Assembly (NCBI RefSeq): GCF_020097815.1
Contig: NZ_CP083663.1
Location: 2,914,001 to 2,978,000 of the forward strand
DNA length: 64,000 nt
Direction of reading: 5' to 3'
From: Haloprofundus salinisoli
Lineage (GTDB): Archaea; Halobacteriota; Halobacteria; Halobacteriales; Haloferacaceae
The notes beneath the pieces are model-generated. The model saw nothing but the letters and a program-made list of their open reading frames with translations, searched no databases and had not been told where the DNA came from. Position numbers and translations under genes: made by a program. Below are positions 24,441 to 27,861 of this stretch, in pieces (within the stretch, counting starts at the first letter, position 1; each line of letters opens with the position of its first letter).

Positions 24441-25634
<1,194 letters not shown>

Positions 25635-25654
25635 TGTCCCGGCGCGGCGTCGCA

Positions 25655-25737
25655 GGCTCCGCAGAGCCACGGGTGAACCACCCGGCGAGCAGTCGCGTTT
25701 CCGATTCGCTCCGCGAGGCCAGAGCACCGCCTCGCGG
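25655..25737 (+). terminator. Hairpin cluster downstream of leuA
   Basis: Three inverted repeats follow the leuA stop: GGCTC-CGCA-GAGCC (about 25655-25668), CGGGTG-AAC-CACCCG (25670-25684) and CCGCGAGGC with GCCTCGCGG (25711-25719 and 25729-25737). They lie before the ilvB promoter and could mark the leuA 3' end or stabilise it. No T-tract follows, so termination is only a possibility. Confidence 0.45.
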
Positions 25738-25810
25738 GCGAGCCACCGAGGAGAGAGCACCGTCCCGTGCGAGCGCGACCCGTTCGGGCAACGTTTGCAC
25801 GGCGCGAAAG

Positions 25811-25820
25811 GGTTTTTACC
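25811..25820 (+). promoter_or_regulatory. Promoter (TATA) of the ilvB leader transcript
   Basis: GGTTTTTACC is a haloarchaeal TATA-like box centred about 29 nt before the ATG at 25845. It predicts a transcript that starts almost at the leader ORF and runs about 255 nt before ilvB. Confidence 0.65.
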
Positions 25821-25844
25821 GACCGGTGATACGGGGCGAACGAG

Positions 25845-25946
25845 ATGCGACAGTCAGGCACACGCCGCACGTCCGCGACGGCCCCCGAGCCGTCGCTTCG
25901 CGGCGAGGCTGTCCTCGGTTCGCTCATTATTGTAGGGGCCGCCTAG
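25845..25946 (+). CDS. Candidate ilv leader peptide (33 codons, Leu/Ile/Val-rich end)
   Basis: ATG 25845 to TAG 25944-25946. The first 17 residues contain no branched-chain residue. The last 16 contain seven, ending AVLGSLIIVGAA. The consecutive Leu-Ile-Ile-Val codons are CTC ATT ATT GTA at 25923-25934; ATT and GTA are A/T-ending codons that are scarce in the GC-rich genes around. The frame starts at the predicted leaderless mRNA start and its stop lies inside a hairpin. This is the expected design of a leader peptide that stalls ribosomes when Leu, Ile or Val is scarce, placed before ilvBNC-leuCDB. No experimental support can be seen here. Confidence 0.6.
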   Translation: MRQSGTRRTSATAPEPSLRGEAVLGSLIIVGAA

Positions 25947-25951
25947 CCCCT
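25875..25951 (+). promoter_or_regulatory. Attenuator-like RNA structures in the ilvB leader
   Basis: Hairpin A: GCGACGGC (25875-25882) pairs with GCCGTCGC (25889-25896), eight perfect pairs. Hairpin B: AGGGGC (25934-25939) pairs with GCCCCT (25946-25951), six pairs spanning the leader stop codon. A competing pairing exists: CGGCCCC (25879-25885) with GGGGCCG (25935-25941), seven pairs that would break both hairpins. A ribosome held at the Leu-Ile-Ile-Val codons would cover hairpin B. The logic resembles bacterial attenuation, but no T-tract follows hairpin B. Confidence 0.5.
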
Positions 25952-26100
25952 TACCACCCCCTCTTCCGACACCGTTTCGCACCGTTTCCGAGAGCGAGCC
26001 GCGCGACCGGTTCGCGCGCTCCGCGACACCAAGCCACGCGCACACCACCGATGCGACCGAACCGACCAGCCACACACCGACAGCAGAGAGGGAGCACAGC
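25947..26100 (+). other. Remaining ilvB 5' untranslated region
   Basis: About 150 bases between the leader stop and ilvB. It begins pyrimidine-rich (CTTACCACCCCCTCTTCC) and holds a third hairpin, GCGCGA (26001-26006) with TCGCGC (26012-26017). A purine-rich GAGAGGGAG about ten bases before the ilvB ATG is a plausible ribosome binding site. No gene is seen. Confidence 0.55.
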
Positions 26101-27861
26101 ATGAGTGAACAACAGCCAGCGCCGACAGCCGAAGAGACCGCCGAGGCCGAGCAGACGACCGAGACGACGCGGATACCGGTCACGACCGGCGCGTCGTCGG
26201 TCGTCCGCGCGCTCGAAAACGCGGGCGTCGAAACCGCCTTCGGCGTGCAGGGCGGGGCGATCATGCCCATCTACGACGCGCTGTACGACTCCGACGTCCG
26301 CCACGTGACGATGGCGCACGAACAGGGCGCGGCGCACGCCGCCGACGCCTACGGCGTCGTCACCGGCGAACCGGGCGTCTGCCTCGCCACCTCGGGGCCG
26401 GGCGCGACGAACCTCGTCACCGGCATCGCCGACGCCGACATGGACTCGGACGCCATCCTCGCGCTGACGGGACAGGTTCCGTCGACGATGGTTGGGTCGG
26501 ACGCGTTCCAGGAGGCCGACACCACCGGCGTCACCGCCCCCATCACGAAGCACAACTACTTCGCGAACGACGTCGACACCGTCGGCGACACGGTGAGTGA
26601 GGCGTTCGCGCTCGCCGCCGAAGGCCGACCGGGACCGACGCTGGTCGACCTGCCGAAGGACATCTCCCTCGGGGAGACCGACCGCGAACCCGGTCCGGCG
26701 AAAGCGCCGGAGACGACGACTCCGCCGACCGAAGCCGATTCCGAATCGGTGGAAGCGGCCGCCCGCGCCATCGAGCGCGCGGAGAAACCGCTGCTTCTGT
26801 TCGGCGGCGGCGTCGTCAAGGCCAACGCCACCGAGGAAGCTCGCGCCTTCGCCATCGAAAAGGGGATTCCGGTCGTCACGACGATGCCCGCCATCGGGTC
26901 GATGCCCGAGGACCACGAACTCTGCCTGTCGTGGGCGGGGATGCACGGCACCGGCTACGCGAACATGGCGGTCACCCACTGCGACCTGCTCGTCGCCGTC
27001 GGCTGTCGGTTCGACGACCGACTCACCGGCGGCGTCGACACCTTCGCACCCGAAGCCGAGGTCGTCCACGTCGACGTCGACGAGGCCGAAATCTCGAAGA
27101 ACGTCCACGCGGACTACCCCGTCGTCGGCGACGCGAAAGCCGTCCTCGACCAACTGGCCGAGGAAGTCGAGCAGTCGCCGGACGCCCGCGAGTGGCGGCA
27201 GCAGTGTCGGACGTGGAAAGAGGAGTACCCGCTGGCGTACAAAACGCCCGAGGACGAGCCGCTGAAGCCGCAGTTCGTCGTCGAAGCCTTAGACGAGGCG
27301 ACGCCCGACGACGCCATCGTCACCACGGGCGTCGGCCAGCACCAGATGTGGGCCGCCCAGTTCTGGACGTTTACGAACCCGCGCACGTGGGTCTCCTCGC
27401 ACGGCCTCGGGACGATGGGATACGGTCTCCCGGCTGCTATCGGCGCGAAACTCGCGGCACCCGACACGGACGTGGTCTGCGTTGACGGCGACGGCTCCTT
27501 CCTGATGACGCTCCAGGAGCTGTCGGTCGCCGTCCGCGAGGAGCTCGACATCACCGTCGCCGTGCTCAACAACGAGTACATCGGGATGGTCCGGCAGTGG
27601 CAGGACGCGTTCTTCGAGGGCCGGCGGATGGCCGCCGAGTACGACTGGTGTCCGGACTTCGCCAAACTCGCGGAGGCGTTCGGCGCGCGCGGCTTCAGCG
27701 CCGAGACGTACGACGAAGTGCCCGAAGTCATCGAGAGCGCGCTCGCCTACGACGGTCCCTCGGTCATCGACTTCCGCATCGACCCCGCCGAGAACGTCTA
27801 CCCGATGGTCGCAAGCGGCGGCGCGAACGGGAGATTCGCCCTCTCGGAGGATCAGCTATGA
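26101..27861 (+). CDS. ilvB: Acetolactate synthase, large (catalytic) subunit
   Basis: A 586-aa ThDP enzyme making 2-acetolactate or 2-aceto-2-hydroxybutyrate, the first common step of Val/Leu/Ile synthesis. Domain order is Pyr (about 30-190, with the activating Glu in MAHEQGAAHAADAYG), a central FAD/DHAP-like domain, and PP (about 390-560) with the ThDP motif VDGDGSFLMTLQELS...LNNEYIGM. An acidic N-terminal extension of about 25 residues precedes the fold. It is the first enzyme gene of the operon and overlaps ilvN as ATGA. A long 5' leader with a Leu/Ile/Val-rich ORF suggests control by amino-acid supply. Confidence 0.95.
   Translation: MSEQQPAPTAEETAEAEQTTETTRIPVTTGASSVVRALENAGVETAFGVQGGAIMPIYDALYDSDVRHVTMAHEQGAAHAADAYGVVTGEPGVCLATSGPGATNLVTGIADADMDSDAILALTGQVPSTMVGSDAFQEADTTGVTAPITKHNYFANDVDTVGDTVSEAFALAAEGRPGPTLVDLPKDISLGETDREPGPAKAPETTTPPTEADSESVEAAARAIERAEKPLLLFGGGVVKANATEEARAFAIEKGIPVVTTMPAIGSMPEDHELCLSWAGMHGTGYANMAVTHCDLLVAVGCRFDDRLTGGVDTFAPEAEVVHVDVDEAEISKNVHADYPVVGDAKAVLDQLAEEVEQSPDAREWRQQCRTWKEEYPLAYKTPEDEPLKPQFVVEALDEATPDDAIVTTGVGQHQMWAAQFWTFTNPRTWVSSHGLGTMGYGLPAAIGAKLAAPDTDVVCVDGDGSFLMTLQELSVAVREELDITVAVLNNEYIGMVRQWQDAFFEGRRMAAEYDWCPDFAKLAEAFGARGFSAETYDEVPEVIESALAYDGPSVIDFRIDPAENVYPMVASGGANGRFALSEDQL

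Follow-up and report, generated by a model that had tools for sequence, protein, structure and literature searches.

A conserved Ile/Val-ending reading frame before ilvB in Halobacteria: a candidate ribosome-sensed leader in Archaea

Why should a reading frame of only 33 codons, ending in codons for branched-chain amino acids, stand in front of the ilvBNC-leuCDB genes of a haloarchaeon, and does its translation have any bearing on their expression? The question arises from Haloprofundus salinisoli (contig NZ_CP083663.1), of which a stretch of 64,000 nucleotides (positions 2,914,001 to 2,978,000), referred to here as the window, was analysed; the closest named relative of the chromosome is Haloprofundus marisrubri (L007). 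The leader ORF occupies the gap between the end of leuA (25634) and the start of ilvB, and its 3' end reads ATT-ATT-GTA-GGG-GCC-GCC-TAG, with the stop codon at 25944-25946 lying 154 nt short of ilvB, which is itself followed by ilvN, ilvC, leuC, leuD and leuB (Table 1). A preliminary description of the locus had read this arrangement as an attenuator-like leader, and its sequence, its ORF (25845-25946, ATG at 25845) and its codon and stop positions all held. So did its TATA-like box at 25811-25820, within which lies the T-rich element TTTTTA (25813-25818), 32 nt 5' of the ATG, and its remark that ATT and GTA are uncommon here, for in eight neighbouring genes of the window ATT accounts for 11% of Ile codons and GTA for 3.7% of Val codons. 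A scan of 30 tRNA loci in the genome returned one separate tRNA-Val(UAC) and one tRNA-Ile(GAU), with the caveat that most of the other 21 hits were left untyped.

Table 1. Features of the leader region and ilvB in the H. salinisoli window.
Feature	Position	Strand	Remarks
Predicted promoter	25803..25818	+	Purine-rich stretch resembling a BRE, and the T-rich box TTTTTA at 25813-25818, which is TATA-like
Leader ORF, 33 codons, predicted leaderless	25845..25946	+	Translation MRQSGTRRTSATAPEPSLRGEAVLGSLIIVGAA, then stop; in-frame homologues before ilvB in every listed locus
Hairpin A, from the ORF body	25849..25913	+	Outer helix 25849-25853/25909-25913
Hairpin A, inner helices		+	Middle 25863-25868/25900-25905; tip 25875-25882/25889-25896
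Control codons CTC ATT ATT GTA	25923..25934	+	In the linker separating hairpins A and B
Hairpin B, AGGGGC-CGCCTA-GCCCCT	25934..25951	+	Stop codon within loop and 3' arm
G-free C/U-rich tract, CCCCTTACCACCCCCTCTTCC	25947..25967	+	Adjoins the stop codon; G depletion kept across loci
Second conserved block, CGCACCGTTTCC	25978..25989	+	Consensus CGCAYCGTTTTC, a T-run ending in C, from alignment
ilvB (acetolactate synthase large subunit)	26101..27861	+	First gene after the leader; identified by translation and homologues

Could such an ORF be there by chance? The first loci examined, comprising the window locus, four other genomes of the genus and 80 ilvB loci across the Halobacteria, all (85/85) have a short ORF before ilvB with a conserved end, in which Ile or another branched-chain codon is followed by GTA, then GGG, then G[C/T]N. 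A pattern search that ignores position found the signature ATYGTAGGGGY...CCCC in 280 of 294 Halobacteria genomes (72/78 genera), a reversed control pattern matching only in a small minority of genomes; position relative to ilvB was checked in 117 loci, a set that includes a few species twice, e.g. L006 and L007. All 14 genomes without the signature possess ilvB, and seven of them have a variant leader, in which the end reads GTA-GTA-GGG (L119, L120), GTC-GTA-GGG (L126) or CTC-GTA-GGG (L128), the next base of the pattern is replaced by G (L121), the 3' arm is altered (L127) or the hairpin is compensated, GTAGGGCC...GGCCCTAC (L122). The remainder comprise two genomes with a degenerate ORF that retains GTA (L123, L125), one where the contig is cut (L132) and four in which the leader ORF is absent (L124 and the distant L129-L131). 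An ORF with an Ile/Val-GTA-GGG end is thus conserved before ilvB class-wide, and the observation is therefore not chance. Failure to find the ORF or its branched-chain codons in close relatives would have refuted the preliminary description; this was tested and did not refute it, and the expectation that related haloarchaea would have a short ORF with conserved codons upstream of ilvB was met. The degenerate leaders of L123 and L125 (...SIRVRAA...) have kept the promoter, GTA and a GGGCC/GGCCC hairpin and have lost the Ile beside GTA, a state that may reflect either decay or retuning of the system. No second copy of the leader was found, the sole other ATYGTAGGGG site in the genome (L087) not being leader-like, and none of 30 haloarchaeal trpC loci has a matching Trp leader upstream.

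The frame is conserved along with the ORF. In 115/117 loci a TATA-like box is followed, at about 32 nt (29-35), by an ATG in frame with GTA, even though the distance from box to GTA ranges from 74 to 186 nt and the length of the ORF from 19 to 55 codons, and out-of-frame ATGs within the same interval were seen in six loci only. The variants of the box were picked after inspection of the data, and the spacing result is therefore descriptive. Since the in-frame ATG holds its place relative to the box despite the varying length, a single transcript from upstream of the ORF is predicted, with the ilvB operon mRNA starting at or beside the leader ATG, i.e. leaderless. That the mRNA begins at this ATG had already been proposed, and agrees with the conserved spacing, although the start itself remains a prediction.

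What, then, is conserved within the peptide? Both GTA and GGG are invariant (117/117), and the codon preceding GTA is ATT in 91 loci, ATC in 21, GTA in three, GTC in one and CTC in one, so that the residue is Ile in 112, Val in four and Leu in one, and where Ile is lost it becomes Val or Leu. The first requirement of an attenuator, end-product codons within the leader ORF, is satisfied: in every one of the 117 loci the ORF has, at its end, an I/V/L codon followed by GTA. Whereas GTA occupies 100% of loci at the leader site, it makes up only 11 of 3617 Val codons (0.3%) in haloarchaeal ilvB genes. Base pairing was considered as the cause of GTA fixation and rejected, as the T of GTA is paired in only 34% of loci. 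The residue is I, L or V in 70% of loci at position -3 and in 53% at position -2, while the N-terminal part contains 13% branched-chain residues. Residue conservation is confined to the last four or five positions, with a C-terminal I-V-G-A/V in the Halobacteria, while the N-terminal peptide is under little or no constraint (ratio 0.45 to 1.5) and drifts in sequence, which fits a leader where translation itself, rather than its product, matters. The comparison shows that the conserved control codons are Ile and Val(GTA); the proposal of Leu/Ile/Val control codons was thus only partly upheld, Leu being merely a frequent extra.

The RNA of the leader is structured in two parts. The ORF body folds more stably than codon-shuffled versions of itself, with a mean z of -2.26 vs -0.30 for ilvB windows and z below -1.5 in 77% of loci vs 17% of the ilvB windows. 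The arms of hairpin A vary between clades, and two-sided changes were found in 6 of 24 consensus pairs in the Natrialbales-type alignment and in none in two other clade alignments. Hairpin B is predicted in 112/115 homologous loci, mostly with 5-9 bp and a loop of 3-10; its GGGG/CCCC is paired in all 117 loci (folding z -2.69), and because these bases are nearly invariant there is little covariation to be seen, limited to one compensated double change (that of L122) and an inner pair that is C-G, U-G or U-A. GTA adjoins or enters hairpin B in every locus, and the leader stop, found 9 nt (50 loci), 12 nt (61) or 24 nt (6) past the start of GTA, usually lies within it. The six loci in the last class (L061, L066, L069, L071, L074 and L078) belong to one Natrialbales-type group, and in these the stop is past hairpin B while GTA-GGG and the hairpin itself are retained. 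Thus, of the structures put forward in the preliminary description, hairpin B (25934-25951) with the stop codon in it held, hairpin A (25875-25896) held as the tip alone of a longer hairpin (~25849-25913), and the alternative pairing between A and B failed on conservation. The seven-pair alternative (25879-25885/25935-25941) is present in the genus but is not conserved: across loci the GGGG arm pairs with the ORF body no better than after codon shuffling (mean longest 4.5 vs 4.9), and such pairing has an ensemble probability near 0. A second requirement of an attenuator, mutually exclusive terminator and antiterminator hairpins, is therefore not met, and a classical switch between them is unsupported.

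Beyond the stop codon the conserved element is one of composition. In the first 18 nt G amounts to 3-4% vs 16-31% from 24 nt on; a G-free run of at least 18 nt from the stop is present in 63% of loci vs 0.4% of random positions; and T peaks at 38%, 12-18 nt beyond the stop. There is no strong U-tract directly 3' of hairpin B, where the sequence is C/A-rich. Hairpin B and a T-enriched pyrimidine tract are conserved, but within 26 nt T-runs mostly reach a length of 1-4 at most. Some 40 nt past the stop, a block with TTTTC is matched in about half of loci (52-58/115), and no conserved structure was found 28-140 nt past the stop (z near 0). In Haloferax volcanii, T-stretches that end in C are sites of termination, and one tested hairpin gave 59% termination (PMC7237163). 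The CGCAYCGTTTTC block resembles this T-stretch-then-C motif and might, by analogy, serve as a terminator; on the same analogy a weak conditional terminator between leader and ilvB is plausible, although unproven.

A further line of evidence comes from outside the class. Of 40 regions upstream of ilvB in other families of the phylum, the only ones with leader-like ORFs were the seven that belong to family f15, which we take to be the Archaeoglobaceae. In the larger set for this family (L233-L280; 48 loci, 12 genera with ilvB hits), 46/48 loci have a TATA-preceded, predicted leaderless ORF shortly before ilvB with a Val/Ile/Leu-rich end, defined as at least five I/L/V among the last eight residues, for instance MNTALRNKINELFLRVVILAVIIVVLL and MKKFSGKELVVVLLVLLF. 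Such a leader appeared in 1.1% of shuffled sequences and in 0/33 loci of other families. The Val codons of these leaders are GTA in 91% (125/138) vs 9% in ilvB, and the Ile codons ATT in 87% vs 29%. The two kinds of leader are alike in being predicted leaderless ORFs before ilvB that end in Val(GTA), Ile(ATT) and Leu codons, and differ in that the f15 leaders have more control codons, varied C-terminal residues (VVVQ, VVVC, VLLF), no GTAGGGG hairpin and a stop within ~40 nt of ilvB, mostly 10-40 nt upstream, where translational coupling of leader and ilvB is conceivable. The recurrence of these amino acids and of the rare Val codon in a separate lineage, whether through shared ancestry or convergence, speaks for codon sensing rather than for a nucleotide motif peculiar to one class.

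How might such a leader act? In the mechanism we propose, the ilvBNC-leuCDB mRNA would start at or next to the leader AUG, with a ribosome loading at the 5' end, unfolding hairpin A and reaching the branched-chain codons, which end with Ile (AUU/AUC) and the rare GUA just before hairpin B. With ample Ile or Val the ribosome would pass, finish at the stop inside hairpin B and depart, whereupon hairpin B would form beside the G-free C/U-rich tract now left exposed, and many transcripts would stop before ilvB; it is this juxtaposition of hairpin and exposed tract that points to premature termination as the off state. Under a shortage of charged tRNA-Ile or tRNA-Val(UAC), the ribosome would wait at the ATY/GTA codons and cover the GGGG 5' arm, so that hairpin B is blocked and transcription continues into ilvB. 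What comparison shows is the ORF, its frame and predicted leaderless start, the identity of the codons, hairpin B, the structured body and the G-free tract. Regulation, translation and stalling are inferred from sequence comparison alone, without expression, Ribo-seq or 3'-end data for the locus, and we regard it as likely, at roughly 0.66, that a ribosome-sensed Ile/Val leader controls ilvBNC-leuCDB. To this extent the attenuator-like reading is supported, by the conserved ORF, frame, start and Ile/Val end and by the analogous f15 leaders, with regulation of ilvB still an inference. The output is less secure: premature termination is the likeliest single route, yet an inference as likely to fail as to hold, with effects on RNA decay or translation sharing the remainder, which remains compatible with the original remark that termination need not be involved. 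Against the main reading stand (i) the lack of a strong U-tract after hairpin B and of a conserved antiterminator pairing, (ii) the GGG of GTAGGGG, which is fixed at the DNA level too and leaves an RNA or DNA signal not excluded, and (iii) the six loci with the stop codon past hairpin B. A bolder reading, towards which the balance tips only slightly, is that archaea of at least two classes sense branched-chain amino acids by ribosome-mediated attenuation, using leaderless leader peptides and the rare GUA (tRNA-Val(UAC)) as the Val control codon that sets ilvB expression, with the Halobacteria doing so through a hairpin and pyrimidine-tract terminator without a bacterial-style antiterminator.

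Of the other explanations, the one that survives best keeps the same sensor and changes the output, such that stalling at the Ile/Val codons alters translation or decay of the ilvB mRNA. This is possible though less probable, and is favoured by the lack of a visible strong terminator in the Halobacteria and by the short distance from leader stop to ilvB in f15, which would allow coupling or masking of the ribosome site. However, in the Halobacteria the stop lies ~100-370 nt before ilvB, which is far for re-initiation and makes it unlikely there, and the conserved downstream part is the pyrimidine tract beside the stop, with no conserved structure further on. An unlikely alternative is that AUYGUAGGGG, hairpin B and the C/U tract together form an RNA or DNA signal for a protein sensing branched-chain amino acids or their precursors, with the ORF as a by-product. 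In its favour GTAGGGG is almost invariant in nucleotides, synonymous positions included, and the pyrimidine tract is strongly G-depleted; against it, ORF start and frame are kept in nearly all loci despite changing length, replacements of the Ile codon are confined to Ile/Val/Leu, the varying distance from the TATA box is unlike that of an operator acting on the promoter, and the f15 family has the codons without the motif. Less likely still is a nascent-peptide arrest, in which a peptide ending ...IVG(A/V) would itself respond to an effector by stalling the ribosome; the conserved C-terminus would suit this, but residues deeper in the exit tunnel, whose conservation marks an arrest peptide, are not conserved, GTA is fixed although any Val codon yields the same peptide, and the f15 peptides end differently. 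Finally, that the ORF is a functional micropeptide or a constitutive brake is very unlikely, for although it occurs in nearly every species, its amino acids drift outside the last codons while the rare codons and hairpin B are fixed, and a matching codon theme recurs in another archaeal family.

If the ribosome-sensed leader is taken as the preferred reading, what does it most resemble? By analogy the nearest known layout is that of the actinobacterial ilvB leaders of Corynebacterium, Mycobacterium and Streptomyces (PMC1262725), where a short ORF before ilvBNC has Ile/Val/Leu codons overlapping a GC-rich hairpin. In every halobacterial locus examined, codons of this kind likewise adjoin or enter a GC hairpin in front of ilvB, but the poly-U run that should follow the hairpin is not found; the actinobacterial leaders have poly-U terminators, and for C. 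glutamicum a three-hairpin model exists (PMC11857589), neither of which applies to the halobacterial leader. The latter differs further in being archaeal and predicted leaderless and in having a short hairpin B, a G-free C/U tract and one invariant rare codon (GTA). Formation of the C. glutamicum leader peptide without a ribosome binding site has reportedly been described by Morbach et al. (2000). For a comparable ilvB leader in S. coelicolor, changes to the presumed control codons were reported to be without effect (PMC1262725), which cautions against inferring function from layout. The ilvL, ivbL, leuL and trpL leaders of E. coli share with the halobacterial leader end-product control codons, rare codons, a variable peptide and a structured leader; unlike them, the halobacterial leader has few control codons, an archaeal promoter, no conserved antiterminator pairing and no bacterial-type intrinsic terminator. 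In E. coli tnaC, an example of Rho-type attenuation, the stop is likewise followed immediately by an unstructured tract, rich in C and poor in G, which could be masked by a stalled ribosome, but the halobacterial leader lacks a conserved arrest peptide. Archaea use aCPSF1/FttA, not Rho. Rfam covariance models (T-box, Leu leader, ilvB-OMG and others) gave no match up to E = 5 in 25600-26200. The preliminary description knew of no archaeal counterpart, and neither did we find a leader-peptide attenuator described in archaea in the open-access literature searched; since most subscription journals were outside the scope, novelty is unproven. Nor is the ilvB leader mentioned in the papers searched that deal with start sites, Ribo-seq under oxidative stress and 3' ends in H. 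volcanii.

Were the reading correct, archaea would couple translation of a leader to expression of a downstream operon, as bacteria do, but the initiation would be leaderless, the polymerase archaeal and the termination probably archaeal as well. Haloferax, which is genetically tractable, carries the leader, making coupling, codon-specific tRNA sensing and regulated termination testable in archaea. Because ilvB itself almost never uses GTA, the leader also offers a test of the bacterial idea that attenuators use codons whose tRNA loses charge first.

Two minor observations concern codon usage around the leader. Across L007-L086, ilvB, which comes first after the GTA leader, has GTA at 0.3% of its Val codons, as against 5.8% for the neighbouring ilvC and 3.3% for leuA (six genes), amounting to a roughly 20-fold depletion. 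Within the leader, the second codon 5' of GTA (-6 to -4 relative to it) mostly takes the form NNT, with T in 80%, a form otherwise rare in these GC-rich genomes, and either several slow codons in succession or a linker kept unpaired might explain the preference.
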